DNA of 64,000 bases from Deltaproteobacteria bacterium (GTDB lineage: Bacteria; Desulfobacterota; Desulfobacteria; Desulfobacterales; SpSt-501), in NCBI GenBank assembly GCA_016219005.1, contig JACRCN010000094.1, positions 62,001 to 126,000 of the forward strand. The letters are read 5' to 3'. The stretch's first letter is position 1; the number at the start of each line of letters is the position of its first letter. A program made the position numbers and the translations under genes. Below the pieces are notes generated by a model, which saw nothing but the letters and a program-made list of their open reading frames with translations, did not search any database and had not been told where the DNA came from. Below are positions 25,136 to 39,996 of the stretch, piece after piece.

Positions 25136-26524
25136 CTAATAACTTCCCCCTCCTTCGACCTCGTCGATGGCCTCCTCAAGGATCGCCAGCGCGCGGTCCA
25201 TCTCCTCGCGCGTGATCACAAGGGCCGGCCGCAGGGTCAGGACATTGCCGTCGATGGTTTTAGACGACAGCCCCTTCTCAAGGCACTTGAACATGACCCC
25301 CTCGGCTTCGTCCACGGCCCTTGCCCGGGTTGCGCGGTCACTCACCAGGTCGATCCCGATGTGCAATCCCAGCCCGGCCACGTGCCCGATCAGGGGATGC
25401 CGTTCCTGCATCTCGTTGAGACGTTGCAGCGCGTAAGCGCCGAGTTCGGCGGCATGTTCAGCCAGCCGGTGGTCTGCGATGTATTCGATTTCCGCCAGGG
25501 CGGCCGCCGCGCACAGCGCGTTTTTCTCGTGGGTGTAATGGCCGATGGACCGGTGCTGCAGCGTGTTGTATTCCTCGCGGGTGACGATCCCGGCAAAGGG
25601 CAAAATGCCTCCTCCCAGCGACTTGCCGAGCACCAGCACATCCGGAGTCACAAAGTGCTCGCTGGCGAACATCTTGCCGGTGCGGCCGAAGCCCTCTATA
25701 ATTTCGTCGAAGATCAGCAGGACGCCGTAGCGGCGGCAGAGATCCCGCACGCCCTCCCAGTAGCGCCGGGAGGGAATCACGGGTGCAGCCGAGATCGGCT
25801 CGCCGATGAGGGCCGACATCTCCGGCTCGCGCCCCAGCACCAGTTCGATCTGCCGCAGGCACTCGGCGTCGACGTCCTCCTCCCGATCAAATCCCCAGGG
25901 GTTGCGGTAGTAGTTCGGAAACTCGACGTGAAAGGTCCCCGGCATCATGGGGCCCAGGCCTCCGTGAAAATGCTCCTCGCCGCCGATGCCGGCCGCTCCG
26001 AAGCCCGCACCGTGAAAGGAATCCCAGAACGAAATGGTCTTGAAGCGGCCGGTCACCTGCCGCGCCAGCGCGAGCGCCATCTCGATCGCCTCCGAGCCGC
26101 CCGGGCAGAACAGGCTGCGGCAAAGGCCGGCGGGGGTGATTTCCGCCAGTTTCTTGGCCAGCTGAATGGCCGGGATGTTCGTGTACCGCCGCGGGCAGAA
26201 CGTCAGGCCTTCGTCCAACTGGCGCCGGACGGCGGCAATCACTTCCGGATTATTGAAGCCGGCATTATGGACGCCGTTGCCGTGCATGTCGATAAAGGGC
26301 TTGCCTTCCAGGTCCAGGATGTAAATCCCCTCCGCGCCCGAAAGCACGTTCAAAACGGGCGTCGAGAGGCTTTGATGGAGGAAATAGCGCGCGTCCTCCT
26401 CGAACCACCGGCGGGCCTCGGGCGACAGGTTGCGCTCCCAGTATTTTCTGCGGTTGGGCGTGGTGTTGACATCGCCCTGTTCCCGTTCCATGCGTTTGCC
26501 GTTCGGCGGCTGCGTCTTGGGCAT
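25136..26524 (-). CDS. Class III PLP-dependent aminotransferase-fold enzyme, PbfA-like
   Basis: 462 residues from the ATG at 26524 (site ggaagga). Fold-type I, class III: GGSEAIEMALALAR (PLP phosphate site), FDEIIEGFGRTGK, and the PLP lysine in VLGKSLGGGILP. Outside those motifs it shares with its divergent neighbour GDVNTTPNRRKYW, EDARYFLHQSLSTPVLN, MHGNGVHNAGF and GHYTHEKN, which are marks of the PbfA group, (R)-1-hydroxy-2-aminoethylphosphonate ammonia-lyase. It differs from the neighbour in the substrate-facing middle (FPNYYRNPWGFDREED), so its substrate may differ: lyase or transaminase cannot be decided. It lies in the phosphonate island. Confidence 0.85.
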   Translation of the reverse strand: MPKTQPPNGKRMEREQGDVNTTPNRRKYWERNLSPEARRWFEEDARYFLHQSLSTPVLNVLSGAEGIYILDLEGKPFIDMHGNGVHNAGFNNPEVIAAVRRQLDEGLTFCPRRYTNIPAIQLAKKLAEITPAGLCRSLFCPGGSEAIEMALALARQVTGRFKTISFWDSFHGAGFGAAGIGGEEHFHGGLGPMMPGTFHVEFPNYYRNPWGFDREEDVDAECLRQIELVLGREPEMSALIGEPISAAPVIPSRRYWEGVRDLCRRYGVLLIFDEIIEGFGRTGKMFASEHFVTPDVLVLGKSLGGGILPFAGIVTREEYNTLQHRSIGHYTHEKNALCAAAALAEIEYIADHRLAEHAAELGAYALQRLNEMQERHPLIGHVAGLGLHIGIDLVSDRATRARAVDEAEGVMFKCLEKGLSSKTIDGNVLTLRPALVITREEMDRALAILEEAIDEVEGGGSY

Positions 26525-26667
26525 GCTGAAGTCCTTCCGAGAAATTTTTAGAATAAGACCGTCGATCATCCAGCGCCAATCTATGCGGGTCAGGGGTTTC
26601 CAGCAAGCGAAAAAAAAAGCAACCGGTGGGATGACCGAAACTCATCCAACGCATGAGAAAGTTTCTT

Positions 26668-26697
26668 TTGACATTCCAACGACCAGCTAAATATAAA
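26668..26697 (+). promoter_or_regulatory. Strong sigma-70 promoter for the PbfA-like gene
   Basis: Perfect -35 ttgaca (26668-26673), 18-base spacer, -10 tataaa (26692-26697). The predicted start of transcription, about 26704, supports the ATG at 26749 over an open frame that begins at 26653. Confidence 0.75.
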
Positions 26698-26748
26698 GAG
26701 GTGGCTCTTCATGCACGCAACCTGATTATTCACGGAGAAACCATCCCC

Positions 26749-28110
26749 ATGGGCAAACTGCACAAATCCGAAGGCGACATCAACATCTCCCCGCGCCGCG
26801 AGCAATGGCAAGGCGCATACCTCAATGCCGATAGCCGCGCCCTATTGGAGGAGGATGCGCGCTATTTTCTGAAGCAGTCCCTTTCCACACCGTGCCTGAA
26901 CACCATGCGCGCCTGCCAAGGCATCTTCATTGAAGACACCCAGGGCCGCCGTTACATGGATTTTCATGGCAACAACGTGCACCAGGTCGGTTTCGGCAAC
27001 ATAGATGTGATTGCCGCCGTCAAGCGCCAGCTCGATGAGCTGCCGTTCTGCACGCGCCGCTACACCAACCGGGTGGCCGTCGACTTGGCCAGGAAGCTGG
27101 CCGAGATCGCGCCCGATCCCTTGAAGAAGTCGCTCTTCTGCCCCGGGGGCGCCGAGGCGGTCGGCATCGCGCTGAAGCTCGCGCGCATCGCCACCGGCCG
27201 GCACAAGACGATTTCCATGTGGGACGCCTTCCACGGCGCCACCCTGGACACCATCTCGATCGGCGGCGAGGCGATCTTCCGCCAGGGCATCGGCCCTCTC
27301 ATGCCCGGCACGGAACACGTGCCGCCGGCGGACGAGTATCGCTGCATCTTCGGCTGCGGCCGCCGCGGCGGCGGCTGCGACATGACCTGCGCCCGCTACG
27401 TGGAGTACATCCTGGAGAAGGAGGGTGATGTCGCCGCGGTGATCGCCGAGCCGATCCGCAGCACGCCCACCATTCCCAGGCCCGAGTACTGGCAGACCAT
27501 CCGCCGGGCCTGCGACCGCCACGGGACGCTGCTCATCTTCGACGAGATCCCGCATGCGCTGGGCCGCACCGGCCGCATGTTCACCTTTGAGAATTTCGGG
27601 GTCGTCCCAGACATGGTGGTCATCGGCAAGGGGCTGGGCGGCGGTGTTTTGCCGCTGGCCGCCCTGATGGTGCGCGCGGACCTGGATGTCGCCGCCGATC
27701 GCGCCCTCGGCCATTACACTCACGAAAAAAACCCGGTCCTGTGCGCCGCGGCCCTGGCGACGATCGAGTACATCGAAACACACGGCCTGGTCGTCCACGC
27801 GCGGCAGCTCGGCCGCTATACGCTGGATCGCCTGAAGGAGATGCGGGAACGGCACCCGCTGATCGGCGATGTCCGCGGGCTGGGGCTGTTCCTGGGCATC
27901 GAGCTCGTGCAAGACCGCGAAACGCGCGAACGCGCGAGCGACGAGGCCGAGGCGGTCATGTATGCGGCCCTTTCGCGTGGCCTGAGCTTCAAGACCACCA
28001 TGGGAAACATCCTGACGCTCACCCCGCCGCTCATCATCAGCCGGCCGGAGATGGACCAAGCACTCGCCATCATCGAGGAGTCTATCGCCGAGGTCGAGAA
28101 GCAAAGATAG
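26749..28110 (+). CDS. pbfA: (R)-1-hydroxy-2-aminoethylphosphonate ammonia-lyase-like PLP enzyme (PbfA)
   Basis: 453 residues. The sequence matches what I know of PbfA, a class III aminotransferase-fold lyase that turns (R)-1-hydroxy-2-aminoethylphosphonate into phosphonoacetaldehyde and ammonia: GDINISPRREQW, EDARYFLKQSLSTPCLN, DFHGNNVHQVGFGN, LPFCTRRYTNRVAV, ISMWDAFHGATLDTISIGGE, FDEIPHALGRTGRMF and PLP lysine VIGKGLGGGVLPLAAL. PbfA widens the substrate range of PhnW-based AEP pathways, and a phnW gene lies 3.5 kb away. The ATG at 26749 has a ggag site and fits the promoter. It is divergent from the paralogue at 25136. A cysteine-rich insert (IFGCGRRGGGCDMTC, near 205) is unusual and might bind metal. 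Confidence 0.85.
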   Translation: MGKLHKSEGDINISPRREQWQGAYLNADSRALLEEDARYFLKQSLSTPCLNTMRACQGIFIEDTQGRRYMDFHGNNVHQVGFGNIDVIAAVKRQLDELPFCTRRYTNRVAVDLARKLAEIAPDPLKKSLFCPGGAEAVGIALKLARIATGRHKTISMWDAFHGATLDTISIGGEAIFRQGIGPLMPGTEHVPPADEYRCIFGCGRRGGGCDMTCARYVEYILEKEGDVAAVIAEPIRSTPTIPRPEYWQTIRRACDRHGTLLIFDEIPHALGRTGRMFTFENFGVVPDMVVIGKGLGGGVLPLAALMVRADLDVAADRALGHYTHEKNPVLCAAALATIEYIETHGLVVHARQLGRYTLDRLKEMRERHPLIGDVRGLGLFLGIELVQDRETRERASDEAEAVMYAALSRGLSFKTTMGNILTLTPPLIISRPEMDQALAIIEESIAEVEKQR

Positions 28111-28194: not shown

Positions 28195-28209
28195 ATAACC
28201 TCAGGTTAT
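28195..28209 (+). promoter_or_regulatory. LysR-type T-N11-A palindrome upstream of the regulator gene
   Basis: ataacct-c-aggttat is a perfect palindrome with 7-base arms and fits the LysR box T-N11-A. It lies 31 bases before the start codon of the LysR gene, so autoregulation is likely. I saw no second copy in the window. Confidence 0.6.
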
Positions 28210-28240
28210 GCTAAAATTGCTTATCAATTCGGAGGGCATC

Positions 28241-29134
28241 ATGAACCTGAACCAGGTGAAAATATTCTACTCCGCCGTGAAGGCGGGCAATTTGAGCGCA
28301 GCGGCCGGCGAGCTCTGCATCACCCAGCCCGCGGTCACCAAGAGCATCCAGCGCCTTCAGGAGCACTACGATCTCAAACTCATCGACCACATCGGCAAGA
28401 AACTCCTTCTCACCGACGCCGGCGAGGCGCTGTACGCGATTGCCGAGAAGATCTTTGAAATGGAAAGCCACGCCGAGGAGAGCATCCGGGATTTCCAGCA
28501 ACGCCAGCGCGGACACGTCCGCATTCTCTCCAGCGAAAGCTTCGGAGATTACTATCTTCCCCAGGTGATCATCCCGTATTGCAAGGCCTATCCGCTGGTG
28601 AAGGTGTCCATGGACATCCTGCCGACCGACCTCGTCGTGGAAAACACCGCCAGCCTGAACTGCGACATCGGTTTCATCTCGTACCCGGTGGTACACGAGA
28701 AATTGACCATTCGGGATGTTCTGGAGGACAAGCTGGTCATCATCACCTCCCGAAGCCACCCGCTGGCGCGCAAAACGATGCTGAAACCGCATGACCTGCA
28801 GGGCCAGGCCGTGATCATGCACGAAAAAGGATCCGCGCCGCGCCGGGCGATCGAGGAGTTCATCCAGCGCCATGCCATCACGGTGAATATCCCCTTGGAA
28901 CTGACCAGCAACCGCGCCATCAAGCGTGCCGCGGAGCACGGCATCGGCATCGCGCTGGTTTCCCAAAAAGTGGCCGAAGAGGAAATCGAAGCGAAACGAC
29001 TCAGGGCCATTCCGATAGCGGACCCCTCCTTCAAACGCAAGTTCTACCTCATCCATCACAAGGAAAAATACATTTCCGAATCCCTGCAGCGGCTGATGGA
29101 CATGGTGTTCCAATGGGCTTCCGAGATCCACTGA
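28241..29134 (+). CDS. LysR-family transcriptional regulator of the phosphonate island
   Basis: 297 residues from the ATG at 28241 (site cggaggg). N-terminal winged helix: MNLNQVKIFYSAVKAGNLS, AAGELCITQPAVTKSIQRLQ and LIDHIGKKLLLTDAGEAL. The rest is a periplasmic-binding-like inducer domain (VRILSSESFGDYYLP, then DIGFISYPVVHEKL). LysR regulators such as AepR often control phnW/pbfA gene sets. Here it follows pbfA on the same strand and converges with the HAD gene, so it may control the operons on both strands. Confidence 0.9.
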   Translation: MNLNQVKIFYSAVKAGNLSAAAGELCITQPAVTKSIQRLQEHYDLKLIDHIGKKLLLTDAGEALYAIAEKIFEMESHAEESIRDFQQRQRGHVRILSSESFGDYYLPQVIIPYCKAYPLVKVSMDILPTDLVVENTASLNCDIGFISYPVVHEKLTIRDVLEDKLVIITSRSHPLARKTMLKPHDLQGQAVIMHEKGSAPRRAIEEFIQRHAITVNIPLELTSNRAIKRAAEHGIGIALVSQKVAEEEIEAKRLRAIPIADPSFKRKFYLIHHKEKYISESLQRLMDMVFQWASEIH

Positions 29135-29319: not shown

Positions 29320-30027
29320 TCAGCGGCGGCGGAGAAGCTCCAGCTGATGCAGTTGATCCAGCCGCGTGATCACGGGCACGTCGGGCGTAACCGCGGGCCA
29401 GGTGCGCCTTACGCTTTCGTGCTTGATCCACACGGGGTTGAGCCCGGCATCTCGCGACCCGCAGACGTCGATGCGCCAGTCGTCGCCGACGTAGACGGCC
29501 TCGGACGGAGCTACCCCCAGCGCAGCGACACACATCCGGAATGGGGCCGGGTCGGGCTTGGGAGGGATGTCGTTTTCACCGGCCACGATGATGATCCGGA
29601 AATAGGATTCAAGCTCCGGGAACTGGCGGATGCGGTGGGTGCCGGAGACAGGCTGCCCCTGGGTGTTGGTGACCAGGGCGACCTGGAACTGCGTGTTGAG
29701 CCGCTCCAGAACGCCCGGGGTTTCAGGGAACAGTACGGAATGGGCTTTCACCGTCGCCCAGTACTCGGTCTCCCAGGTGTCGAGCAGCGCCTCGTCCGGC
29801 AGCAGGCAATAATAGTGGTAGACGTCCCGCCACATGGCGCGGCGCGAGAAGTTCGACCGGCCGTGGAAGTCTTTGCGGACCTGCCGGTAGTGTTCCATGA
29901 ATTTTTCACGCAGCGATAGCGCCATGTGCCCGAACAGTTTTTCCTGGGCGTCCTTTTCGGCCCGCCGGAACCCGTCCGCGGAATCCACCATCGTCTGACC
30001 GAAATCGAAAATGACCGCTTTGATCAT
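29320..30027 (-). CDS. HAD-superfamily hydrolase with D-x-G motif I; candidate phosphonoacetaldehyde hydrolase
   Basis: 235 residues. HAD motifs: I VIFDFGQTMVDS, II LVTNTQG, III lysine in PPKPDPAPF, IV VGDDWRIDV, with a helical cap between about 20 and 95. In ordinary HAD phosphatases the residue two after the nucleophile is an acid (DxD). Here it is D8-F-G10. Phosphonoacetaldehyde hydrolase (PhnX) also lacks that acid, having Ala there, and uses a cap lysine near position 53 to form a Schiff base; this protein has a lysine at 52 in its cap. It is the last gene of the operon with phnW and an acylating aldehyde dehydrogenase. Overall identity to PhnX is low by eye, so a generic HAD role stays possible. 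Confidence 0.75.
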   Translation of the reverse strand: MIKAVIFDFGQTMVDSADGFRRAEKDAQEKLFGHMALSLREKFMEHYRQVRKDFHGRSNFSRRAMWRDVYHYYCLLPDEALLDTWETEYWATVKAHSVLFPETPGVLERLNTQFQVALVTNTQGQPVSGTHRIRQFPELESYFRIIIVAGENDIPPKPDPAPFRMCVAALGVAPSEAVYVGDDWRIDVCGSRDAGLNPVWIKHESVRRTWPAVTPDVPVITRLDQLHQLELLRRR

Positions 30028-30047
30028 GCCGGGTTTGATCCTTGCAC

Positions 30048-30097
30048 AAACCGGAGAACCGGCAACAGCTCAGCGGCCGTCACCCGTTCTCCGGTTT
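30048..30097 (-). other. Inverted repeat between aldehyde dehydrogenase and HAD genes
   Basis: Arms aaaccggagaac (30048-30059) and gttctccggttt (30086-30097) pair perfectly over 12 bases around a 26-base loop. No clear T-run follows on the minus strand, so partial termination or mRNA processing before the HAD gene is more likely than a full stop. Confidence 0.6.
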
Positions 30098-30135
30098 TCA
30101 TCGTGTCGGCTGCCGATCGGCATGCCGCCGAAAAA

Positions 30136-31527
30136 TTAATCCTTGCCCCACTTCTTGAGGTAGTCCCCGAAGAGCTCTTCATCGGCGGGGATGTGCTCCT
30201 TGATGGGCATGGAGACCTGCGTGTAGTTCAGAAAATGCTGCCAGTTGACGTTTTCGCTCGTGATGTTTCCGGCCCAGGTGCCGCAGCCGAGGGTATCGGT
30301 GAAGGTCAGGCCGGAGCCCCAGCCGCCGCTGTTGGCGGCGGTGTGGCCCATGTTGCAGACCACCCGGCCGACTTTGGCCCGCAACGCGAGCTTTACCCGG
30401 CGCTCGTCCAACTCGGTGTGAATCGAGACCGAATGCCCCTTGCCCGAGAACTCGAGAATCTTTTCCAAGCGGTCCAGCATCTCGTCGAAGTCGCTCCACT
30501 TCCACACGGTTAGGACAGGAGAGATCTTCTCGCCGGAGAACCGGTCCTCGCGGCCGATCTTCTCGCCGATGACCATGAGGAACTTCGTCGTCTCCGGGAC
30601 CTTGATGCCGGCCAGATCGGCGATGAATTTGGCACTGTGGGCCACGATGTCGCGGTTCAGGGTCTTGCCGTCCGGCCACATGCACTTGCGCAGGGTTTCG
30701 CGCTCCGCGGTGCTGCACAGGTAGCCGCCCTCTTTCTTGAGGCACTCGATCATCTTGTCGTAGATGCTCGCGTGGAGAGCAACGGCATTCTCCGAGGAGC
30801 AGGAGGCGGCGTTGTTGGCGATCTTGGAAAGCATGATCTTGCGGGCGGTCGCCTGCAGGTCGGGCACCGTCTCATCTACGAAGGACACGACGTTCCCGGC
30901 GCCCACGGTCTGGGCCGGCTTGCCGGCCGCGTAGACGACCTTGACCAGGGCCGCACCGCCGGTCGCCACCGCAAAATCGCAGTAGGCCATCAATTCCTGA
31001 GTCTTGGCCTGGCTCGTGTTCTTGATGCACTGCAGCAGGTCCACCGGCGCGCCGATTTTTTTCAGGGCCTCCCGGCCATACTCCACCGTCAGGTAGGAAC
31101 TCTTCTGGGTGCGGGGGTGGGGGGAGACGATCATGGCGTTGCGTGTTTTCAGGGTGGACAGACCGATGCAGCAGATGGTCGACTCCGGGTTGGTGCAGGG
31201 AACCACATCCGCGACGACCCCGATCGGCTTGGCGTACTTGCGGATGCCGCGGACCTTGTCCTCCTCCACCAGGTCGCAGGTCTTCACCCCGCGCTGGTCC
31301 CAGAGGGTGCCCAGGGTCTTCGTCCTGATCTTGGCCAGCTTGTCCTCGTAGACCCCGATCCCGGATTCGTCCACGGCGGTCCGTGCCAGCACCTTGCGCA
31401 CTTCTTCCTTCTGCCAGATCCAGCCCACGGCCTGGACCACTTCGTCGACCCTCTCCTGGGGCCAGTACTGGTATTCCTCGAATGCCTTTTTAGCTTTGGC
31501 GTACATTTCCTTGATGTCGTCTTCCAT
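30136..31527 (-). CDS. Acylating (CoA-dependent) aldehyde dehydrogenase, EutE/SauS type
   Basis: 463 residues. The family oxidises an aldehyde with NAD(P)+ and CoA to an acyl-CoA; members act on acetaldehyde, propionaldehyde, succinic semialdehyde or sulfoacetaldehyde. Diagnostic parts are KPIGVVADVVPCTNPES, TLKTRNAMIVSPHPR and the catalytic C243 in NNAASCSSENAV; the NAAS-C-SSE context is that of acylating and not hydrolysing ALDHs. It lies in one operon with phnW (91 bases upstream) and the HAD protein (108 bases downstream). If the HAD protein makes acetaldehyde, this would give acetyl-CoA; without that step, phosphonoacetaldehyde or sulfoacetaldehyde would be the substrate. Sequence alone does not choose. 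Confidence 0.9.
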   Translation of the reverse strand: MEDDIKEMYAKAKKAFEEYQYWPQERVDEVVQAVGWIWQKEEVRKVLARTAVDESGIGVYEDKLAKIRTKTLGTLWDQRGVKTCDLVEEDKVRGIRKYAKPIGVVADVVPCTNPESTICCIGLSTLKTRNAMIVSPHPRTQKSSYLTVEYGREALKKIGAPVDLLQCIKNTSQAKTQELMAYCDFAVATGGAALVKVVYAAGKPAQTVGAGNVVSFVDETVPDLQATARKIMLSKIANNAASCSSENAVALHASIYDKMIECLKKEGGYLCSTAERETLRKCMWPDGKTLNRDIVAHSAKFIADLAGIKVPETTKFLMVIGEKIGREDRFSGEKISPVLTVWKWSDFDEMLDRLEKILEFSGKGHSVSIHTELDERRVKLALRAKVGRVVCNMGHTAANSGGWGSGLTFTDTLGCGTWAGNITSENVNWQHFLNYTQVSMPIKEHIPADEELFGDYLKKWGKD

Positions 31528-31618
31528 AGTGTCTTTCGAACCTCCGTCTGAAGTTGATTTACGTGGGTTGAAAAGGGACCGGCGGGATCCCCGTTCCGGT
31601 AGCCCGCGCGTTCGCGCG

Positions 31619-32752
31619 TTATTTAATGGGAATCGAATAGCCCATCTTCCGGAACGCCTCCTTGGCGACCACGAAGAAATCCTCGATATCCTTGTGGGTG
31701 ATGACGCCGAGGTTGCACAGCCGGAAGGTTTCCAGCCCGAACATCTTGCCCGGGTAGATGGTGAAGCCGCGCTCGTAGCAGTAGTCGTGCAGCTTGAAGA
31801 AATCGAACTTCCCGTCCTTGGGGGCCTTGATGGTGACCACCAGCTTGCCCTGGATCTTCTTGTCGATGACGGACGTCAGCCCGATCTCCTGCATGCCCTT
31901 GTGAACGGCCTCCCAGCACTTGCTCAAGCGCTCGTAGCGGGGCAGCTCTCCTTCCTGCCAGTATTCCTTGATGGCCTGCTGCAGGGAGTAAATGGTCTGG
32001 ACCGGGGGGGTGAAGTGCATTTCGCCCACCCGTTCGAAAAAGTCATACTGCATGAACAGGTTGCAGTAATAGGAGCGCGTTGGATAACCCTTGGACTTGA
32101 CGATCTCATCGATTTTGCCCACCGTCCAGGAGGCGCCGGTCATGGCCGCCAGACCCTTCTGGGCCGAGGACATGCAGAAGTCGATGTTTTCCTTTTCCAT
32201 GTCGATCGGGAGCAGCCCGTAAGTCGAAATCGTGTCGGCCACGAACACGCAGCCGTGGTCGTGGGCGATCTTTCCGATCTCCCGGACCGGGTTGAGCACC
32301 CCGGTGCCGGTTTCATGATGGGTGGTGGCGACCACCGCGATGTACTTGTCCTTGTCCAGGGCTTCCTTCACGGCCTTCAGGTCCGGAAGCCCGGTGGAGG
32401 GAAACTTCAGGTCCACGCAGGGGATGTGGTAGTACTGGGCGATCTCCACCATGCGGGCGGAATAGGACCCGTTGTTGACAACGCAGATCTTCTTGTTCGC
32501 GGGCACCAGGGAATTGACGAGCGCATCCTGGACGACCGTCCCGGAGCCGGTGAAGAGCACGGCCGTGTACTTCTTCGGGTCGGCGTGAACCACCTTGACC
32601 AGCTCGCGGCGGACTTCGTCCATGACGTTCACGAATTCCTTCTCCCGGGGGCAGATGTCGGGCACCACCTGGGCGTACTTCACCGTGTCGGTGGTGGTGG
32701 CCGGACCCGGGTTCAGAAGCACGTTGCGTTTGACGGGATTAACGATGTCCAT
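31619..32752 (-). CDS. phnW: 2-aminoethylphosphonate:pyruvate aminotransferase (PhnW)-like class V enzyme
   Basis: 377 residues, ribosome site ggagagg. Class V aminotransferase with LLNPGPATTTDTVKYAQVVPDICPRE cut here to its ends: LLNPGPATTT and DICPREKEF, the PhnW N-terminal motif; FTGSGTVVQDALVNSL; HHETGTGVLNPV; and the PLP lysine in SSAQKGLAAMTG. PhnW moves the amino group of AEP to pyruvate, giving phosphonoacetaldehyde and alanine. AEP-type transporter genes at 41.7-45.5 kb and alanine dehydrogenase at 51.1 kb support this. A relative acting on another aminoethyl compound such as taurine cannot be excluded. Confidence 0.85.
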   Translation of the reverse strand: MDIVNPVKRNVLLNPGPATTTDTVKYAQVVPDICPREKEFVNVMDEVRRELVKVVHADPKKYTAVLFTGSGTVVQDALVNSLVPANKKICVVNNGSYSARMVEIAQYYHIPCVDLKFPSTGLPDLKAVKEALDKDKYIAVVATTHHETGTGVLNPVREIGKIAHDHGCVFVADTISTYGLLPIDMEKENIDFCMSSAQKGLAAMTGASWTVGKIDEIVKSKGYPTRSYYCNLFMQYDFFERVGEMHFTPPVQTIYSLQQAIKEYWQEGELPRYERLSKCWEAVHKGMQEIGLTSVIDKKIQGKLVVTIKAPKDGKFDFFKLHDYCYERGFTIYPGKMFGLETFRLCNLGVITHKDIEDFFVVAKEAFRKMGYSIPIK

Positions 32753-32850
32753 GGTTTATCCTCTCCATTTAGAGCCTCAGCGCAACGATGAGGGCAAAGC
32801 GGCTCCGGGCAGAACGTGATCACGGCCTGTCCCGGAGCTGCCGGTGTTCC

Positions 32851-33906
32851 CTACAGTTTTCCGACTTTCTTGATGCCTGACTTTTTACTCGGATCGTGGA
32901 TCTCCTCGACGATGCCGTGCCCGCTGCCGATGAGCTTTTTCCGCTCGTCCCGGGCCCGGGCCCATTCGGCCGTCGTGCGGCAGATGCCCGACTGCGCGAC
33001 CTTCGCACGGTCTTTCAGCGGGGGTACCGGGCGATCCGCCGGCCCGTCGTAATCTTCCTTGGGGGTCAGGGCTTCACCCAGCCGCGTGTACCCGTTTCTT
33101 TCGGTCTCCTCGATGTAGTGGGCCCCGACGCTGAGGGCTCGGGTCACGGCCAGGATGGCCCAGGTGGCTTCCGGCGAGAACCCGAGGTCCATCATCGTGG
33201 CGCCGATCGCACCGAGCATGTCCAGGTCCACCGGCTCGGGACTCTGTTTCCGGGCGGCCGCGACGATCTCCTTCGTGAAGGCGATGTACTTCCCGGCCAC
33301 CCCGAGCTTCTCGGCCCGCGCGAACATGCGCTTGGCCGCCGGGTCCTTCAGCATGAGGTTCGAAACCCCCAGGGCCTCGTCGTTCAGGTTCTCCTTGACC
33401 AAGAGCTCAGCGGCCTGGGCCGTGCTCAGCCCCTGCTTTTCGGCCCTCTTCAAGTATTTCTCCAGACGGTTGCCGAAGGCGGAGTAAGCACCGAAGGCGT
33501 GGCCGAAGGCCAGGATCGAGGCCGCGGCGGCCTGGGTGAGAAAGGTCTTGGTCCGGGCGACGATGCGGGACATGGCGGCCGGCGCGGAGAGCCCGTCCTC
33601 GAGGGCCAGGATGAGCACGTAGTTGAGCATCTGCTCTTCTTCCACCAGCGGAATACGGGCCTGGTAGTCGACGAACAGCACGTCGACGATCCCGTAGCCT
33701 TCTTCCATCAACTCGGTGGTGTCGTACCCGCGAGACACGATGCGGTGGACGTTCTTGTAGGCCACCTCGGACACCCACTGGAACGGCGCCCGCTTGGTGT
33801 CGCGCGGCACGGTGCCGTACTCCCGCTTGAAATAATCAAACGGCATCTTCGGGCTGTCCAGATTCCCGACGCCGCGCGCTTTCTTGGTTTCGTTCAGATC
33901 GCCCAT
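32851..33906 (-). CDS. Citrate-synthase-fold protein B with altered active site
   Basis: 351 residues from the ATG at 33906, which overlaps the upstream paralogue by 13 bases (site aaggaga). The citrate synthase/citryl-CoA lyase fold is seen in GYDTTELMEEGYGIVDVLFV, ILALEDGLSAPAAMSRIVA, AFGHAFGAYSAFG and MMDLGFSPEATWAILAVTR. By my eye alignment none of the three catalytic residues of citrate synthase is conserved: the GxxHG region reads FGHAFGAY with the histidine displaced, GFGHR is replaced by LGVSNLMLKDP, and the NVD aspartate is a leucine. N- and C-terminal extensions (about 40 and 60 residues) are basic. With its partner it may form a hetero-oligomer with other chemistry. Confidence 0.8.
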   Translation of the reverse strand: MGDLNETKKARGVGNLDSPKMPFDYFKREYGTVPRDTKRAPFQWVSEVAYKNVHRIVSRGYDTTELMEEGYGIVDVLFVDYQARIPLVEEEQMLNYVLILALEDGLSAPAAMSRIVARTKTFLTQAAAASILAFGHAFGAYSAFGNRLEKYLKRAEKQGLSTAQAAELLVKENLNDEALGVSNLMLKDPAAKRMFARAEKLGVAGKYIAFTKEIVAAARKQSPEPVDLDMLGAIGATMMDLGFSPEATWAILAVTRALSVGAHYIEETERNGYTRLGEALTPKEDYDGPADRPVPPLKDRAKVAQSGICRTTAEWARARDERKKLIGSGHGIVEEIHDPSKKSGIKKVGKL

Positions 33907-34790
33907 TTCTTGTATTCTCCTTCCTCTTTCTGTTTCCTGGCGTATTCCTGCCGTTCGGCCTGCTTGGGCACGACCCGGTCTTCCGGGCCGACGTACTTGA
34001 TCATGGACAGATCGATCATCTGCACCATGGGCTCGTTGCGCGAGGCGCCCCAGGCCCGGCCCTTCTTCATGTTGAACAGGGCATGGGCCGCGCAGCTGTA
34101 TCCGCGGCAGACGCTGCCGAGGCACCAGCCCGCGTTGGGGGAAAAACCGATCTCCATCAGGGCCGTGTTGCCGGAACCGACCACGTTCACACCCACCTTG
34201 GACCGGCCCTCCAGCTTGCGCCGGGCATGGAAATACTTCTCGACCGCCCGCTGAAACTCGAGGTAGACCCCCTCCAGCTTCAGTTCTTCCTGCTTGACAT
34301 GGATCGGCTCGGCGCGGGGGTCGCTGTCGATGTGCTGCGGCTGGCCCATGCCCATGACCGGTGTTTCCGCGTCCATGTACTCATCCACCAGGATCTTCGC
34401 CATTTCGTCGACGGTTTTGCCTTCGCGCTGCGCGCGCTCAAGGTATTTGTTCAACATGTAGCCGTGGGCAGCCCCCGGGCCGTGCACACCGCCGAAGGTG
34501 CTCACCGCCGCCGCAATCGCGCAGGGCAGGTTCGGGCGCCCGGCGCTTACGCCGATGGCGGCCACTGCCGAGGGCGACATGGAGTGCTCCAGGAAGACGC
34601 CCATTTCGTACTTCAGCATCTTCTCTTCGGCTTCGGGGGGAATGCGGCCTTGGTACAGCACAAAGAGGGCGTCACAAAAGGAGTAGCCCTCTTCCGCCAG
34701 TTCGCTCAGGTCGTACCCGCGCATGACGGTCTTTTCCTCCGTCTTGTAGGAAATGGCGGTTTTCCTGCGAAAAAAAGGTTCTCTGCTCAT
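33894..34790 (-). CDS. Citrate-synthase/citryl-CoA-lyase-fold protein A with altered active site
   Basis: 298 residues. Fold markers are MRGYDLSELAEEGYSFCDALFVLYQGRIPP (in part: GYDLSELAEEGYSFCDALF), GVFLEHSMSPSAVAA, FGGVHGPGAAHG and GMGQPQHIDSDPRAEPI. The first catalytic histidine (GGVHG) is present. The second (GFGHR in citrate synthase, GFGHPxH in citryl-CoA lyase) is Gln, with the histidine three residues later kept. The catalytic Asp of NVD is replaced (VNVVGSGNTALMEIGFSP). It is the second gene of the phnW operon after the small gene at 34923, has promoter P1 directly upstream and overlaps the second paralogue. Substrate and reaction are unknown; a lyase on a hydroxy-acyl-CoA is one idea. 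Confidence 0.82.
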   Translation of the reverse strand: MSREPFFRRKTAISYKTEEKTVMRGYDLSELAEEGYSFCDALFVLYQGRIPPEAEEKMLKYEMGVFLEHSMSPSAVAAIGVSAGRPNLPCAIAAAVSTFGGVHGPGAAHGYMLNKYLERAQREGKTVDEMAKILVDEYMDAETPVMGMGQPQHIDSDPRAEPIHVKQEELKLEGVYLEFQRAVEKYFHARRKLEGRSKVGVNVVGSGNTALMEIGFSPNAGWCLGSVCRGYSCAAHALFNMKKGRAWGASRNEPMVQMIDLSMIKYVGPEDRVVPKQAERQEYARKQKEEGEYKKWAI

Positions 34791-34903
34791 TCTCTTTCCT
34801 CCGGTTCGATAAAGTTTGATGCGCTATTGGGAATTCCTAAAGAAAATGCACACGTGAACAGCATGGAGCGGAGCATTCAAATACGGACCCGTTTTTATGA
34901 CAA

Positions 34904-34948
34904 ACTATAAATTGCCCCACAATTATAAGTCAAAATAATTAAAATCAT
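34904..34948 (-). promoter_or_regulatory. Promoter P1 of the phnW operon, AAGTCAA/TAATTAAA class
   Basis: Minus strand: -35 ttgact (34933-34928), 18-base spacer, -10 tatagt (34909-34904), and an A+T-rich block (aaaataattaaaat on the plus strand) upstream. It lies about 115 bases before the first citrate-synthase-like gene and inside the 3' end of the small gene. It is nearly the same as P2 at 35242. Confidence 0.7.
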
Positions 34949-35135
34949 GTATCAGATAATATTGAGTCATACCGGAAGCAGTTTCAAGATTCTCCCGGCC
35001 CTTCAGTGCATCCGCTTCCTCCATGGAGATATTGTCCCCTGCCTGTTTATACAGTTCGCAATCGTACGAGACGTTCTTCCCTACCCCTTTGCTGAAAGCG
35101 GCCGCCCTGCTGTCAGCGAAGCATCCTCCGTACAT
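34923..35135 (-). CDS. Small unknown protein, 70 residues
   Basis: Start ATG at 35135 has a very good ribosome site (caggagg, seven bases away), and promoter P2 lies about 110 bases upstream, so expression is likely. The product begins MYGGCFADSRAAAF and ends YYLIHDFNYFDL, is soluble, has two cysteines and no family I know. Its last 25 bases overlap promoter P1 of the citrate-synthase-like genes. It may be a leader or regulatory peptide, or the first subunit of the operon. Confidence 0.5.
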   Translation of the reverse strand: MYGGCFADSRAAAFSKGVGKNVSYDCELYKQAGDNISMEEADALKGRENLETASGMTQYYLIHDFNYFDL

Positions 35136-35527
35136 TTCATTTCCTCCTGCGTTTGCGGCACGGTGCTGCATAAAGAATCCGCAACGGTGAATATCTTTTG
35201 AACTGGGAATTGCAACCCTGAGTCAATCCTGAGTTAAAGAAACTATAGGGTCGCCGCCAACTATAAGTCAAACTAATTAAAATTATGTTTTTGATGAAAT
35301 ATTGTTATGAAATACCGACTGCTCAGTGCCCGAATGCACCTGGTTGCTTGGCTGCGGTGAGGCGTGGGGAAGTTTGATCCGGCAGCATGCCTGGTTCACA
35401 GGGGAGTGTAAAACGGCGTCTCAGGCCCTGATCAGGCGTTGCGCGTCCTTGGCAAGTTCTCACATATCAATGGATCAGCTTGTCGATTTAACCCTGTAAA
35501 ATATTGCTTTATCGGAGCCGTGTGGCG
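35136..35527. other. 392-base intergenic region between small gene and alcohol dehydrogenase
   Basis: It holds promoter P2 (35242-35288) reading left. I see no gene. A direct repeat cctgagt lies twice near 35217-35233 downstream of P2, and a short palindrome cctgatcagg near 35428. The right part is the 3' trailer of the alcohol dehydrogenase transcript, which also reads left, with no obvious terminator. Confidence 0.5.
35242..35288 (-). promoter_or_regulatory. Promoter P2, near copy of P1
   Basis: Minus strand: -35 ttgact (35271-35266), 18-base spacer, -10 tatagt (35247-35242), with the same A+T-rich upstream block. P1 and P2 share about 24 of 28 bases upstream of the -35 side plus both boxes and spacing, which suggests duplication or a common regulator. 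Confidence 0.7.
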
Positions 35528-36622
35528 TCATAGCTTAATCGCCACCCGGATCGCCTTGCCCGAGTGGGCCACTTCCATCGCCTGGTTGATCTCATCCAAC
35601 GCAAAGCGGTGGGTCACAATGTCTTTAAAAGGGAATAAGCCCTGGTAGCGCTGCAGGAAGTCAATCCCCCATTCCAGGTGTTTTGTGTCATAATTGTGCA
35701 CCCCTTTTATGGTCAGCCAGCGGAAAATGATATCCGAGGCATCGTATGTGAAGTTGGCTCCGGGAAACACGTTGCCTATCTCGATGTATTGGCCACCCTT
35801 TCGCAGGCATTTCAACCCGACCGGAACCACCTCGGGCCGTCCGGCAACCTCCATGGCGACATCCGCTCCGAAGCCCCGCGTCATGCCCTGGATCATCCTG
35901 ACAAGATCTTCGCCCTGCACCTCTTTGACATTGACGGTATCCGTCGCCCCAAACTGTTTGATAAACTCCAACCGGTTGTCCATGACATCGGTGACGATGA
36001 TTCTATTGCAGCCTTGGGACTTGGCCAATGCCGCGGCATAGATACCCAACGTCCCGGCGCCCTGGATCAATATGTTGTCGCCGGGCTCCAATCGCGCCGC
36101 ATCCCATCCGGCAGCCACGGTGGCAAGCGCGCAGTTCGCGGAAGCAGACACCTCATCCGACAGATCGTCCGGGATTTTGATTACGCAGGTTCCGGGCATG
36201 ACGTAGCAGTACTCGGCAAACCCTCCGATGAAGTGCGGCGGAGCCGCACAGCTGTCATGGCCGTACTTCTTCAAATCCAGGCACTTCATCATGAGCCCTT
36301 TTTCTCGGCAGTAATAGCATTTGCCGCAACTATCCATGATGGTCCAGGTGATGCGGTCTCCAATTGTTAACGGCCGCCCCCCGGAATCCCAGGATACGCC
36401 CGCTCCCATTTCCACGATCTCGCCCATGATCTCATGGCCAAGTATGATCGGTGTGGGGCTGGGCCGGGTCCCCAGCCAGGTATGGAGGTCCGACCCGCAG
36501 ATCGCACAACACTTGATTTTGACGAGAATCCAGCCTTTCTCGACGCCGGCCAGAGGGTACTCCCAGATTTCCAAAGGGGCCTTGGCTTTTGTCATTACCG
36601 CCGCTCTGCCTTTCGGTTGCAT
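35528..36622 (-). CDS. Zinc-binding alcohol dehydrogenase, phosphonate-catabolism-associated type
   Basis: 364 residues from the ATG at 36622 (site aaaggagag). Medium-chain dehydrogenase: catalytic zinc ligands in CCAICGSDLHTW and GHEIMGEIV, structural zinc cysteines in DSCGKCYYCREKGLMMKC, Rossmann motif GAGTLGIYAAALAKS. The stretch KYGHDSCAAPPHFIGGFAEYC followed by PGTCVIKIPDDLSDEVSASANCALATV (shown in parts) resembles the alcohol dehydrogenase family often linked to phosphonate gene sets. It is the last gene of an operon with a TRAP importer, so it probably oxidises the imported hydroxy compound. A hydroxyalkyl-phosphonate or -sulfonate is a guess. Confidence 0.88.
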   Translation of the reverse strand: MQPKGRAAVMTKAKAPLEIWEYPLAGVEKGWILVKIKCCAICGSDLHTWLGTRPSPTPIILGHEIMGEIVEMGAGVSWDSGGRPLTIGDRITWTIMDSCGKCYYCREKGLMMKCLDLKKYGHDSCAAPPHFIGGFAEYCYVMPGTCVIKIPDDLSDEVSASANCALATVAAGWDAARLEPGDNILIQGAGTLGIYAAALAKSQGCNRIIVTDVMDNRLEFIKQFGATDTVNVKEVQGEDLVRMIQGMTRGFGADVAMEVAGRPEVVPVGLKCLRKGGQYIEIGNVFPGANFTYDASDIIFRWLTIKGVHNYDTKHLEWGIDFLQRYQGLFPFKDIVTHRFALDEINQAMEVAHSGKAIRVAIKL

Positions 36623-36737
36623 ACCGGTCTCTCCTTTATGCACGTCCGGGTGGGAACGATAAGATCGGCGACATCCTCTCTGAATGAACTTGGCCGTGCC
36701 TATCGACAAATGCCATATCGATAAAAATGTTAGCGAA

Positions 36738-38054
36738 TTAACCGAAAAGGAGTTTGGGAAGCCAGAGCACGATCTGCGGGAAGAAATAGACCAGCGCCAC
36801 GCCCAACACCTGCAGGCCCATGAAGGGCATCATCCCCTTGTAGATATCCAGCAACTCCCACGATGGCTCCACCCCTTTAAGATAATAAGCCGACAGGGCT
36901 ACCGGTGGGGACAGCCAGCATGTCTGGAGTGTGACGGCCAGCAGGATCGCGAACCAGATCATGTTGATGTGCAGGTCGATGATGATCGGGAGAAACACCG
37001 GCACGATGACGACCACGATGGGAACCCATTCCAGAGGCCAGCCGAGAATGAAACAGACGATCAGGATTCCGACCACGAACACCCAGGGGGGCAGATGCAA
37101 GGCCAACAGGGAAGTTGCGATGAACTTGGGGGTTCCCATGGAGGAGAAGACCGCCCCCATGAACGTCGAGGCGGCCAGGAGGATCATCACCATGCTCGTC
37201 GTCTCCGCCGTCCGGAAGGTGGATTCCTTCACGATCTTGAAGGTCAGCTTCCCGTTGAACAAGGTGACCAGGACTGCGCCTAGGCAGCCGAGCGCTGCGC
37301 CCTCCGTCGGCGTGGCGAGTCCCGACATGATGGTCCCCAGCGTGGCCACGATCAGGGCCGCCGGGGGCACCAGTCCGAGAAAAAACTCGCGGGCTATGTA
37401 GGCTCTGGGAACGTTCAACTCCTCGTCGGACAGGGGCGGGCCCATCTCCGGTTTGATCATGACTCTTATTGTCGTGTAAACTATGTATAGAGCGGAAAGC
37501 AGGAGCCCGGGCAGGATCGCGGCCGCGTAAAGCCGGGCCACGGATACGTTCATCACCGGTCCCATGACGACCAGCATGACACTCGGGGGGATCAGGATGC
37601 CCAGGGTCCCGCCCGCGCAGATCGTTCCCGCGGAGAGCCCCGTGTCGTATCCGGCTCTCTTCATGACCGGAGCCGCCATCAGGCCGATGATCGTGACGGA
37701 GGCGCCGACGATCCCGGTGGCCGCCGCGAAAAGGGTCGCCGAGAAGATCGTCCCCATATAGAGGGAACCCCGCCGGCGGCCGGAGAGGAGCTGGACCGCA
37801 TGGAAAAGGCGCTCCATAAGACCGGCGCTTTCGAGCAGGTAGCCCATGAAGGTAAAGAGAGCCACCGCAGCCAGGACGGTGTCCATCATCGTCCCGAAAA
37901 ACGAATAGGTCATCAGGTGAAAAACCCTTTCACCGAGACCGATGTACCCGAAGATCACGCCGAGGGTGATCAGCGTGAAAGAGATGGGAAACCCGACACA
38001 AATCGCAAAAAAAAGGACTCCCAAAAGCACCACACCGTAAATTTCCAGGCTCAC
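36738..38054 (-). CDS. TRAP transporter large permease (DctM family)
   Basis: 438 residues, GTG start with ggagg site. About 12 hydrophobic segments; conserved ASVTIIGLMAAPVMKRAGYD, GTLGILIPPSVMLVVMG and in the second half the family PPVALSAYYLKG. It belongs to the TakP-associated group by its pairing with the TakP-like binding protein at 38890. It carries the substrate for the zinc alcohol dehydrogenase encoded 115 bases downstream. Confidence 0.94.
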   Translation of the reverse strand: MSLEIYGVVLLGVLFFAICVGFPISFTLITLGVIFGYIGLGERVFHLMTYSFFGTMMDTVLAAVALFTFMGYLLESAGLMERLFHAVQLLSGRRRGSLYMGTIFSATLFAAATGIVGASVTIIGLMAAPVMKRAGYDTGLSAGTICAGGTLGILIPPSVMLVVMGPVMNVSVARLYAAAILPGLLLSALYIVYTTIRVMIKPEMGPPLSDEELNVPRAYIAREFFLGLVPPAALIVATLGTIMSGLATPTEGAALGCLGAVLVTLFNGKLTFKIVKESTFRTAETTSMVMILLAASTFMGAVFSSMGTPKFIATSLLALHLPPWVFVVGILIVCFILGWPLEWVPIVVVIVPVFLPIIIDLHINMIWFAILLAVTLQTCWLSPPVALSAYYLKGVEPSWELLDIYKGMMPFMGLQVLGVALVYFFPQIVLWLPKLLFG

Positions 38055-38147: not shown

Positions 38148-38687
38148 TCAGGTAATTTCGGTTGGAGCCGCAATGTTGCGCTCGTCCTTTCCCGTCAGGA
38201 TCAGTTTTGCCGATTTAAGGATCTCCGAGATGCCCTGGAGTAGAATCAGGGATGCGCTCACGGGAATGACCAGCTTATACAAGTATGCAGGGGGCCTCCA
38301 AGTCGTCATCAGCTGTTCCTTGAGGTCCCAGGATTCGGCGAAGAAATCCCAGCTCAGCCAGGCGAACATCACCATCCCGGGAAGGAAGAGGAGCACGTAG
38401 CAGATCACATCGACCCAAGCCTGGGTCTTCGGAGACCACTTTCCGTACCAGAAATCGGTCCGGATATGCTTTCCCAGATACAGGGTCATGGCGCCCGCGA
38501 TGAAGAAATGGGTTCCGTACGCCATGGTCGCGATGTCCACAGCCCAGAGCGTGGGTCGGTAGATATAGCGGATAAGCACTTCCCAAACCAGCACACCCGC
38601 CATCGGGATGATAAGCCAGGCAGCGGCCTTCCCCGACCAGAGGCTGATCCGGTCAATCACCTTGATGATCCGATCGATAGGGTTCAT
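38148..38687 (-). CDS. TRAP transporter small permease (DctQ family)
   Basis: 179 residues from the ATG at 38687 (site ggagaaa). Four hydrophobic segments; AWLIIPMAGVLVWEVLIRYIY and LYLGKHIRTDFWYGKWS are typical. It lies between the binding protein and the large permease in one operon. Confidence 0.92.
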   Translation of the reverse strand: MNPIDRIIKVIDRISLWSGKAAAWLIIPMAGVLVWEVLIRYIYRPTLWAVDIATMAYGTHFFIAGAMTLYLGKHIRTDFWYGKWSPKTQAWVDVICYVLLFLPGMVMFAWLSWDFFAESWDLKEQLMTTWRPPAYLYKLVIPVSASLILLQGISEILKSAKLILTGKDERNIAAPTEIT

Positions 38688-38797
38688 GTTTCGTTTCTCC
38701 ACAACTTGAAGGACGGGCATCTGCTCGCTTCACGCCAGCGGCTTGAAACGACCAGTGTTCCCCGCCGCGTGATTCGCTCCCTCCGGGAAAAAGGCCT

Positions 38798-38889: not shown

Positions 38890-39996
38890 TTAATTTCCTT
38901 CCGCGGCCCCCGCGATGAGCACTGTCAGCTTGGCCGTCTCACGGGTGAAGGGAACCACCTGGCCGGCGAACTTACGCTGGGATTCGAGGACCTTCTTGAA
39001 GAAGGGATCCTGCTCTTCGAACTTGGCAAGCACCTTCTTTGCAGACTTGATGAAGGCGGGTGCGTAATCGGGGGGTGCGTCGAACACTTTGACGCCCTTT
39101 TCCCTGGTCAGGATCTGAAGCGCCTTGGAGTTCTCGTCGACAAAGTACATGATGCTCTCAAGAATCGTCGCCGTGGTCGCGACCTCAACGATCATCTGGA
39201 GGTCCGGAGGCAGGCTGCGCCATGCCTTGCCGTTGATGACAATATCCATGATGTCAATCGCCTGATGGAGCCCCTGGATGGAGTAATTCTTGAAGACGTC
39301 GTAAAGCCCCAGCTTCAGATCGCTGGCCGTGTTGATCCACTCGACGGCGTCAATCAGCCCCCTCTCCCCGGCGGGAATGATTTCCTGTCCCGCCATGTTC
39401 ACCGGGATGCCGCCCATGTCCTTCAGAACGTCCGACGGCAGGCCGGAGGACATCCGAATCCTCATCTTCAGGTAATCCGCGTTCGTCTTGGGCGCGGTCT
39501 TGAACCACCCGAAGGCCTCCGGCCCGTCCGGTGCGATCAGGAAGGCCATGACGTCCGCCTTGAGAATCTTCTGGTAATATTCCAGGTAGAGGTCCCGTCC
39601 TCCGCCCCGCAGGTACCAGGAAAGATGGTTGAACATGTCCAAACCGCTGCCGGAGCCACCGAGCGGGGCGCTGAACAGACCGCCGGCCGGGTGTTTCCCC
39701 GTGGCGTAATGGGTCCACCATTGTCCGCAGTCGATGACGCCCTTGTTCACGGCATCGAGGATTTCAAACGGATTTACGATCGCTCCACTCGGGAGCACCT
39801 CGATCTTCAGTCTGCCGGCCGACATCTTGTCAACGGTCATGGCGAATTTGTTCAAGATCTCAATGTGCGGAGTACCCGCGGGGTTGGCACTCTGAAGTTT
39901 CCACTTGAACTGCTGCTGCGCTTCCGCGGGCCCCGAAAAACCGCCGATGGCCAGGAGCAGGGCTGCCACACACAGTACGGTCAGTATTCTTTTCAT
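38890..39996 (-). CDS. TRAP transporter binding protein, TakP-like
   Basis: 368 residues from the ATG at 39996 with a perfect site (aaggagg). Signal peptide residues 1-26 (VLCVAALLLAIGGFSGPAEA). The pattern LFSAPLGGSGSGLDMFNHL, APDGPEAFGWF, LKMRIRMSSGLPSDVLKDMGG and GQEIIPAGERGLIDAVEW is that of the TakP group, whose known members bind 2-oxo acids, lactate or related short carboxylates as dimers. Context (alcohol dehydrogenase, phosphonate genes) suggests a short hydroxylated organic acid or analogue. Confidence 0.93.
   Translation of the reverse strand: MKRILTVLCVAALLLAIGGFSGPAEAQQQFKWKLQSANPAGTPHIEILNKFAMTVDKMSAGRLKIEVLPSGAIVNPFEILDAVNKGVIDCGQWWTHYATGKHPAGGLFSAPLGGSGSGLDMFNHLSWYLRGGGRDLYLEYYQKILKADVMAFLIAPDGPEAFGWFKTAPKTNADYLKMRIRMSSGLPSDVLKDMGGIPVNMAGQEIIPAGERGLIDAVEWINTASDLKLGLYDVFKNYSIQGLHQAIDIMDIVINGKAWRSLPPDLQMIVEVATTATILESIMYFVDENSKALQILTREKGVKVFDAPPDYAPAFIKSAKKVLAKFEEQDPFFKKVLESQRKFAGQVVPFTRETAKLTVLIAGAAEGN

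Follow-up and report, generated by a model that had tools for sequence, protein, structure and literature searches.

Among natural phosphonates, 2-aminoethylphosphonate (AEP) is very common, and the known hydrolytic routes for its breakdown yield either acetaldehyde, through PhnX, or acetate, through PhnA. In the PhnW-PhnX pathway, PhnW gives phosphonoacetaldehyde, and phosphate and a two-carbon (C2) unit are released; in the PhnW-PhnY-PhnA pathway, the aldehyde is oxidized prior to cleavage of the carbon-phosphorus (C-P) bond. We propose that these features recur in the operon described here, which lies in a 64,000-nucleotide (nt) window (the whole stretch of DNA that was analyzed) from a 5.24-Mb draft genome of a Deltaproteobacteria bacterium (Desulfobacterota; contig JACRCN010000094.1). 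It departs from the first pathway in that the window genome has no PhnX over the family cutoff and in that the C2 unit is proposed to be acetyl-coenzyme A (acetyl-CoA). It departs from the second in that a proposed CoA thioester would conserve bond energy, in that a citrate-synthase-fold pair—CS-A and CS-B—is proposed to cleave the C-P bond, and in that the window genome gave no PhnA match (E 1e-5) and no match to PhnY (TIGR03250) over the cutoff. We know of no link between the citrate-synthase fold and C-P cleavage. Our reading of the operon, phosphonate catabolism through CoA thioesters with C-P cleavage by CS-A/CS-B, is a tentative one, to which we give just under an even chance.

The operon comprises five co-directional minus-strand genes, running from position 34790 down to 29320: CS-A, CS-B, phnW, an acylating aldehyde dehydrogenase gene, and a HAD gene (Table 1). 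An earlier reading of the window (here, the original prediction) had described the last three of these as a complete-looking route from AEP to acetyl-CoA, provided that the HAD protein is a divergent PhnX. All three genes lie on the minus strand where it placed them. CS-A (298 amino acids) and CS-B (351 amino acids), which occupy 34790 to 32851 of the same interval and overlap by 13 nt (CS-B start, 33906; CS-A end, 33894), had been overlooked, and these two are linked more tightly with the dehydrogenase than the HAD gene is. PhnW scored over the TIGR03301 cutoff (417 versus 361 bits) and did not reach the stricter TIGR02326 (288 of 401 bits); its best solved relatives were 6pd1 (294 bits) and PhnW 1m32 (205 bits). 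Since dsrA was over its cutoff in the window genome, it is reasonable to call the host a sulfate reducer, as the original prediction did, and its statement that PhnY and PhnA are absent likewise agrees with our searches.

One genome per species was scanned with a CS-A alignment, which gave 73 loci, of which 72 were kept after one (L100; 30% identity) was dropped; linkage counts were restricted to the 43 loci with >4.5 kb of sequence downstream of CS-A. Near CS-A, these loci carried CS-B in 39 cases, the dehydrogenase in 40, and HAD in 26. CS-A/CS-B is the most conserved part of the operon and is tighter with the dehydrogenase than HAD is. The dehydrogenase was on the CS-B strand in all 49 loci having CS-A, CS-B, and the dehydrogenase, and a window-type PhnW lay between CS-B and the dehydrogenase, as in the window, in 15 of them. 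As in the window, the start of CS-B fell inside the end of CS-A at an identical offset in 58 of 59 other loci; the exception (L061) has a CS-B that looks frameshifted. Sequence distances for CS-A and CS-B ran in parallel (Mantel r = 0.83; 60 loci), and correlations were also found for CS-A and the dehydrogenase (r = 0.55; 47 loci) and for CS-A and HAD (r = 0.46; 29 loci); in each comparison, none of 500 permutations was as high, and shared host ancestry can contribute to these correlations.

CS-A is rare within the phylum of the window genome, with matches at E 1e-10 in 9 of 395 genomes, the clear ones being the window genome and three others (68, 47, and 48% identity). Phyla were mixed in the CS-A tree (67 rows), where nine labels required 21 changes versus a minimum of 8; because the labels are record titles of metagenome bins, this mixing is no proof of transfer. 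A sister form of the locus (L021, L022, and L095 to L097) carries CS-A only (46 to 48% identity), together with the dehydrogenase, a second kind of HAD protein (HAD2), and class III aminotransferases, and is without CS-B; some of these loci also carry an AEP-type transporter.

The best family match of the dehydrogenase was to the acylating sulfoacetaldehyde dehydrogenase SauS (NF047625; 498 bits, below the cutoff of 600), and it scored 310 bits against the acetylating acetaldehyde dehydrogenase family TIGR02518 (cutoff, 620). Its best solved relative was the succinate-semialdehyde dehydrogenase SucD, with 292 bits versus 265 for AdhE. Lys70 and Ser243 of SucD coordinate the distal carboxylate, and PduP has Leu and Val there (PMC10249356). 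The window dehydrogenase has Lys70, plus Ser244 adjoining the catalytic Cys243, both of which were kept in 48 of 48 orthologs; all four of the AdhE chains shown had Ala at both pocket positions. The resemblance of this Lys/Ser pair to SucD, rather than to the Ala/Ala of AdhE, makes an anionic aldehyde likelier than acetaldehyde. Phosphonoacetaldehyde or a similar anion is the likelier substrate, and the acetaldehyde step in the original prediction appears doubtful.

The Lys70/Ser244 pair was also found in a paralogue from the window genome (L007) and in two plasmid proteins beside AMP-binding genes, which are recorded as aldehyde dehydrogenase family proteins and which we take to be SauS-like. 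SauS is thus the best family for the window dehydrogenase and shares its Lys/Ser pair; the differences are that the window dehydrogenase is 38% identical to the two SauS-like proteins, scores under the SauS cutoff, and has phosphonate neighbors. It is conceivable that the operon serves a sulfonate (taurine or sulfoacetaldehyde) rather than a phosphonate, considering this nearness to SauS and the TRAP transporter alongside. However, PhnW and PbfA were over their cutoffs in the window, and the neighbors recognized beside the module were phosphonate genes, not sulfonate genes, which, with the shortfall against the SauS cutoff, makes a sulfonate operon very improbable. Elsewhere in the window genome, contig C32 carries a second SauS-like dehydrogenase, a paralogue of that in the window (L133, 6167 to 7573; 526 bits); a PhnR-like regulator comes after it, and the ten proteins scanned there included no clear sulfonate gene.

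Two further clusters bear on the form in which the substrate may reach CS-A/CS-B. In genome G279 (L020; 8.5-kb contig), PhnW and the dehydrogenase are absent from the contig, and the genes run alcohol dehydrogenase, ferredoxin, aldehyde ferredoxin oxidoreductase, HAD, CS-A, CS-B, and, last, both subunits of a CoA transferase. In L084, CoA-transferase genes are followed by CS-A, CS-B, and the dehydrogenase. These CoA-transferase sets would provide an alternative way from an aldehyde or acid to an acyl-CoA usable by CS-A/CS-B, and the two clusters point to acyl-CoA as the substrate of the pair.

CS-A is similar to citryl-CoA lyase (Ccl) and to the lyase module of ATP-citrate lyase in its fold and length and in having the first catalytic His and two Arg residues. 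It differs from citryl-CoA lyase in the replacement of the second His by Gln and of the Asp by Val or Ile, in having a degenerate second subunit, and in its 24% identity to 6hxp, the citryl-CoA lyase that was the best Foldseek match to its AlphaFold model. At the positions that we take to be the His, His, and Asp catalytic triad of citrate synthase, CS-A has His, Gln, and Val/Ile, unlike either citryl-CoA lyase or citrate synthase: H103, R159, and R229 were invariant in 41 of 41 sequences, as were the changes of the second catalytic His to Q150 and of the catalytic Asp to V/I204. Control citryl-CoA lyases from L014 and L100, aligned likewise, had the intact set H,H,R,D,R; no alignment was obtained for L016 or L017, and L013 (T,H,R,D,F), like L015 (T,H,R,A,Y), is a different paralogue and was left out of the controls. 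The five active-site positions of CS-B are F,V,A,L,R, and its first His and first Arg were also lost in the eight CS-B sequences aligned.

With the Asp gone from CS-A, the usual abstraction of a proton from acetyl-CoA is not expected. The pocket would still appear to hold a thioester, stabilize an enolate, and bind an anion through two Arg residues, which are the needs of C-P cleavage in phosphonoacetyl-CoA. It is also conceivable that CS-A/CS-B joins a 2-oxo acid to phosphonoacetyl-CoA (or acetyl-CoA) in a condensation and that a later reaction breaks the C-P bond of the product, in keeping with the citrate-synthase fold and the retention of both substrate Arg residues. We give this condensation little credence, given that the catalytic Asp and second His were replaced in every CS-A sequence aligned and that no further shared product-consuming enzyme was seen in the clusters.

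The HAD protein has the motif D8-F9-G10-Q11-T12, and thus Gly two residues after the nucleophile (position +2), and Lys at residue 52, exactly as the original prediction had read them; its step from there to a divergent PhnX is not supported. Among 30 HAD orthologs, the +2 residue was G in 26, D in 3, and Y in 1, and residue 52, the candidate counterpart of the Schiff-base Lys (K53) of PhnX, was K in 19, R in 4, A in 4, Q in 2, and T in 1. The sole invariant Lys was K157, which belongs to the ordinary motif III, and no other cap Lys was invariant. Gly at +2 is also a feature of the phosphatase YihX, and the nearest solved relatives in a profile search were phosphatases, such as PH1655 and N-acylneuraminate-9-phosphatase. 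The PhnX family TIGR01422 gave no match at the HAD gene (E 1e-5), and its lone match in the window genome was on contig C103 (46 bits; cutoff, 220). Given the variable K52, the lack of a TIGR01422 match, and the phosphatase relatives, we rejected a divergent PhnX as the main reading, and the window HAD is unlikely to be PhnX. Structure comparison with the HAD model (mean predicted local distance difference test [pLDDT], 93) had no PhnX among the 50 rows listed, a result not counted as evidence. Relatives of PhnX are recognizable in these clusters: HAD2, present in eight loci, aligned with solved PhnX, with a Lys at the Schiff-base position and an Arg before the last motif, and scored 168 bits against TIGR03351 (cutoff, 219), so that the window HAD does not look like one. 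The PhnX-like HAD2 was in turn rejected as a general C-P enzyme, being confined to those eight loci.

HAD lay immediately downstream of the dehydrogenase on the same strand in 27 of the 29 loci having both and is present as well in L131, a further phosphonate cluster, where its neighbors are a PhnA-like gene and an AEP-type transporter. This arrangement, together with a nonacidic +2 residue in 27 of 30 orthologs, would suit a route in which HAD is a phosphonatase that converts phosphonoacetaldehyde to acetaldehyde and phosphate, the dehydrogenase converts acetaldehyde to acetyl-CoA, and CS-A/CS-B acts later or is unrelated. Such a route is unlikely, however, in view of the inconstant Lys at residue 52 with no other invariant cap Lys, the Asp at +2 in three orthologs, the ordinary character of K157, the phosphatases as closest relatives, and Lys70/Ser244 in the dehydrogenase; it also leaves CS-A/CS-B unexplained. 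A different role for HAD would follow if the dehydrogenase makes phosphonoacetyl-CoA and HAD cleaves its C-P bond, with the thioester carbonyl replacing the Schiff base as the electron sink and the CS pair binding or handing over the acyl-CoA. Loss of the +2 acid would suit an enolate leaving group, and HAD is linked to the module, yet less often than CS-B and the dehydrogenase are (26 versus 39 and 40 of 43 loci). Considering also the three orthologs with Asp at +2 and that no HAD ortholog was found in three of the eight genomes without HAD in the cluster (one with a sequence gap there), we regard cleavage by HAD as improbable. HAD is a frequent helper linked to phosphonate genes and a putative accessory of the module.

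Phosphonate context was counted by tblastn (E 1e-10) in the 26 loci with >6 kb downstream and >5 kb upstream of CS-A, without a random-locus baseline. A PhnW homologue was present in 16 of these large loci, a PbfA homologue in 9, and either in 17; a wider marker set—PhnW, PbfA, alcohol dehydrogenase, HAD2, and PhnA-like—was represented in 23. Checked examples over curated cutoffs were PhnW in L048 and L077 and the alcohol dehydrogenase in L092. In a genome of the same genus (G398, L027), the five genes adjoin an ABC transporter like the PhnS2/T2/U2 AEP families, under the cutoffs.

Known phosphonate enzymes were surveyed in 14 module-bearing genomes (the window genome, G398, G279, and the genomes of 11 loci). 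PhnX, PhnA, and PhnY were each over the cutoff in none of the 14, and the C-P lyase component PhnJ was over the cutoff in one. Four genomes had HAD2-type proteins with a weaker match to PhnX (110 to 117 bits; cutoff, 220), and a PhnA-like protein (200 bits; cutoff, 408) was found in one. Since no PhnX, PhnA, or PhnY was over the cutoff, phosphonoacetaldehyde would be without a known outlet in most of these genomes, unless the module is that outlet.

In the pathway that we propose, PhnW (from AEP), PbfA (from R-hydroxy-AEP), and the alcohol dehydrogenase (from hydroxyethylphosphonate) would feed phosphonoacetaldehyde, steps assigned from the named families. The dehydrogenase, judging from its family and the conserved Lys70/Ser244, would convert phosphonoacetaldehyde to phosphonoacetyl-CoA, and a CS-A/CS-B complex would then split the C-P bond to give acetyl-CoA and phosphate. 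H103 may hold the thioester carbonyl and stabilize the acetyl-CoA enolate, and R159 and R229 may hold the phosphonate. A phosphoryl group, instead of a proton, would leave to water, so that the Asp of citrate synthase would not be needed; the part played by CS-B would be structural or regulatory. From the sequence comparisons, CS-A/CS-B is the most probable C-P enzyme, and AEP is likely to be converted overall to acetyl-CoA and phosphate. These end products are the part of the originally predicted pathway that survives, whereas its PhnX-type chemistry is at odds with the HAD evidence. It is possible, although we would put it somewhat below an even chance, that the heteromeric citrate-synthase-fold pair is a new class of C-P cleaving enzyme that uses the thioester as an electron sink and forms, with the acylating dehydrogenase, a module found under nine phylum labels that lets anaerobes use phosphonates for carbon and energy.

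Several points weigh against cleavage by CS-A/CS-B. HAD, or HAD2 in eight loci, could be the C-P enzyme instead. In five of the eight genomes without HAD in the cluster, a HAD ortholog occurs elsewhere in the genome, so HAD may be needed; the idea that HAD is dispensable is weakened by these five and by two of the remaining three, L083 having a run of unknown bases within the dehydrogenase where HAD would follow and the L072 genome having HAD2. In L085 and L034, no dehydrogenase lies near the CS pair, and 3 of the 26 large loci (L079, L085, and L098) lack a phosphonate marker. Because the SauS-like proteins share K70/S244, the pair cannot tell a sulfo- from a phosphono- substrate. The CS-A pocket, finally, was read from alignments only, because the AlphaFold model of CS-A alone was poor (pLDDT 58).

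The operon is flanked by two PbfA genes over their cutoff, a LysR gene, a zinc alcohol dehydrogenase gene near TIGR03366, and a TRAP transporter (Table 1). An AT-rich 61-nt element, present in two copies 338 nt apart upstream of CS-A, is possibly a duplicated control region. HAD, CS-A, and CS-B had no match in a defense-system library. In other loci, a PhnA-like protein directly adjoins the HAD gene (L086, 11103 to 12200, with 215 bits against a cutoff of 408; L131, 7774 to 8862). A PHO4/Pit-type phosphate transporter and its DUF47 partner lie beside phosphonate genes in L034 (8865 to 10495) and might export surplus phosphate; L131 (9958 to 12842) has such a pair too, judged from the look of the sequence alone. 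MFS transporters resembling the phosphate antiporters PgtP/UhpT occur near CS-A in L092 (8690 to 9967) and seven other loci, which would fit an exchange of phosphonate for phosphate. Gene pairs <10 kb from CS-A in L048, L051, and L083, which we take to be MttB-like and which had no NCBIfam match, possibly act on N-methylated aminoethylphosphonate. A saccharopine-dehydrogenase-like protein, of a kind not known to act on phosphonates, is encoded near the modules of L131 (830 to 1993) and L084 (8286 to 9461).

Table 1. Coordinates of the operon and its surroundings in the window
Feature	Coordinates	Strand	Basis
CS-A, citrate-synthase/citryl-CoA-lyase-like, 298 aa; proposed catalytic half of C-P cleaving pair	33894..34790	-	Pfam Citrate_synt 58 bits; 6hxp profile match E 1.8e-29
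CS-B, 351 aa, paralogue and partner of CS-A; lacks active-site residues; ATG within CS-A end	32851..33906	-	citryl-CoA-lyase-like
PhnW-type 2-aminoethylphosphonate aminotransferase, 377 aa	31619..32752	-	TIGR03301 417 bits (cutoff 361)
CoA-acylating aldehyde dehydrogenase, SauS/SucD kind, 463 aa; proposed phosphonoacetaldehyde to phosphonoacetyl-CoA	30136..31527	-	NF047625 498 bits (cutoff 600)
HAD-superfamily protein, 235 aa, motif DFGQT; putative accessory	29320..30027	-	family matches, ortholog alignment
Zinc alcohol dehydrogenase, phosphonate-associated HpnZ group; proposed hydroxyethylphosphonate to phosphonoacetaldehyde	35528..36709	-	TIGR03366 319 bits (cutoff 328)
DctM, TRAP transporter large permease	36738..38054	-	TIGR00786 257 bits (cutoff 268); homologues beside CS-A in L061, L087
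DctQ, TRAP transporter small permease	38148..38720	-	PF04290 83 bits
DctP, TRAP transporter solute-binding protein; start codon uncertain	38890..40395	-	PF03480 107 bits
LysR regulator, likely of the CS-A cluster	28208..29134	+	homologues beside other CS-A modules
PbfA-type ammonia-lyase gene; proposed second feeder to phosphonoacetaldehyde	26653..28110	+	NF049939 700 bits (cutoff 525)
Second PbfA-type gene	25136..26569	-	NF049939 656 bits (cutoff 525)
61-nt element upstream of CS-A, copy 1	34902..34962	.	direct repeat; copies 75% identical and 338 nt apart
61-nt element upstream of CS-A, copy 2	35240..35300	.	pair to copy 1

In the portion of the open-licence PubMed Central literature that was covered, no description of an acyl-CoA or citrate-synthase-like route for AEP was found, although a subscription paper could exist; the term "phosphonoacetyl-CoA" appeared there in the context of an antibiotic pathway. 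The sections of the phosphonate-enzyme literature and of a review that were checked made no mention of citrate synthase, citryl, or acetyl-CoA. If the proposed pathway is true, the C2 unit would be kept as acetyl-CoA, which would spare the expense of activating acetate and avoid free acetaldehyde, and C-P cleavage would gain an acyl-CoA mechanism and a fold that we know of no link to it for. Genes annotated as citryl-CoA lyase or aldehyde dehydrogenase in many metagenome genomes would thereby acquire a role, and phosphonates would be a source of carbon and energy for anaerobes.

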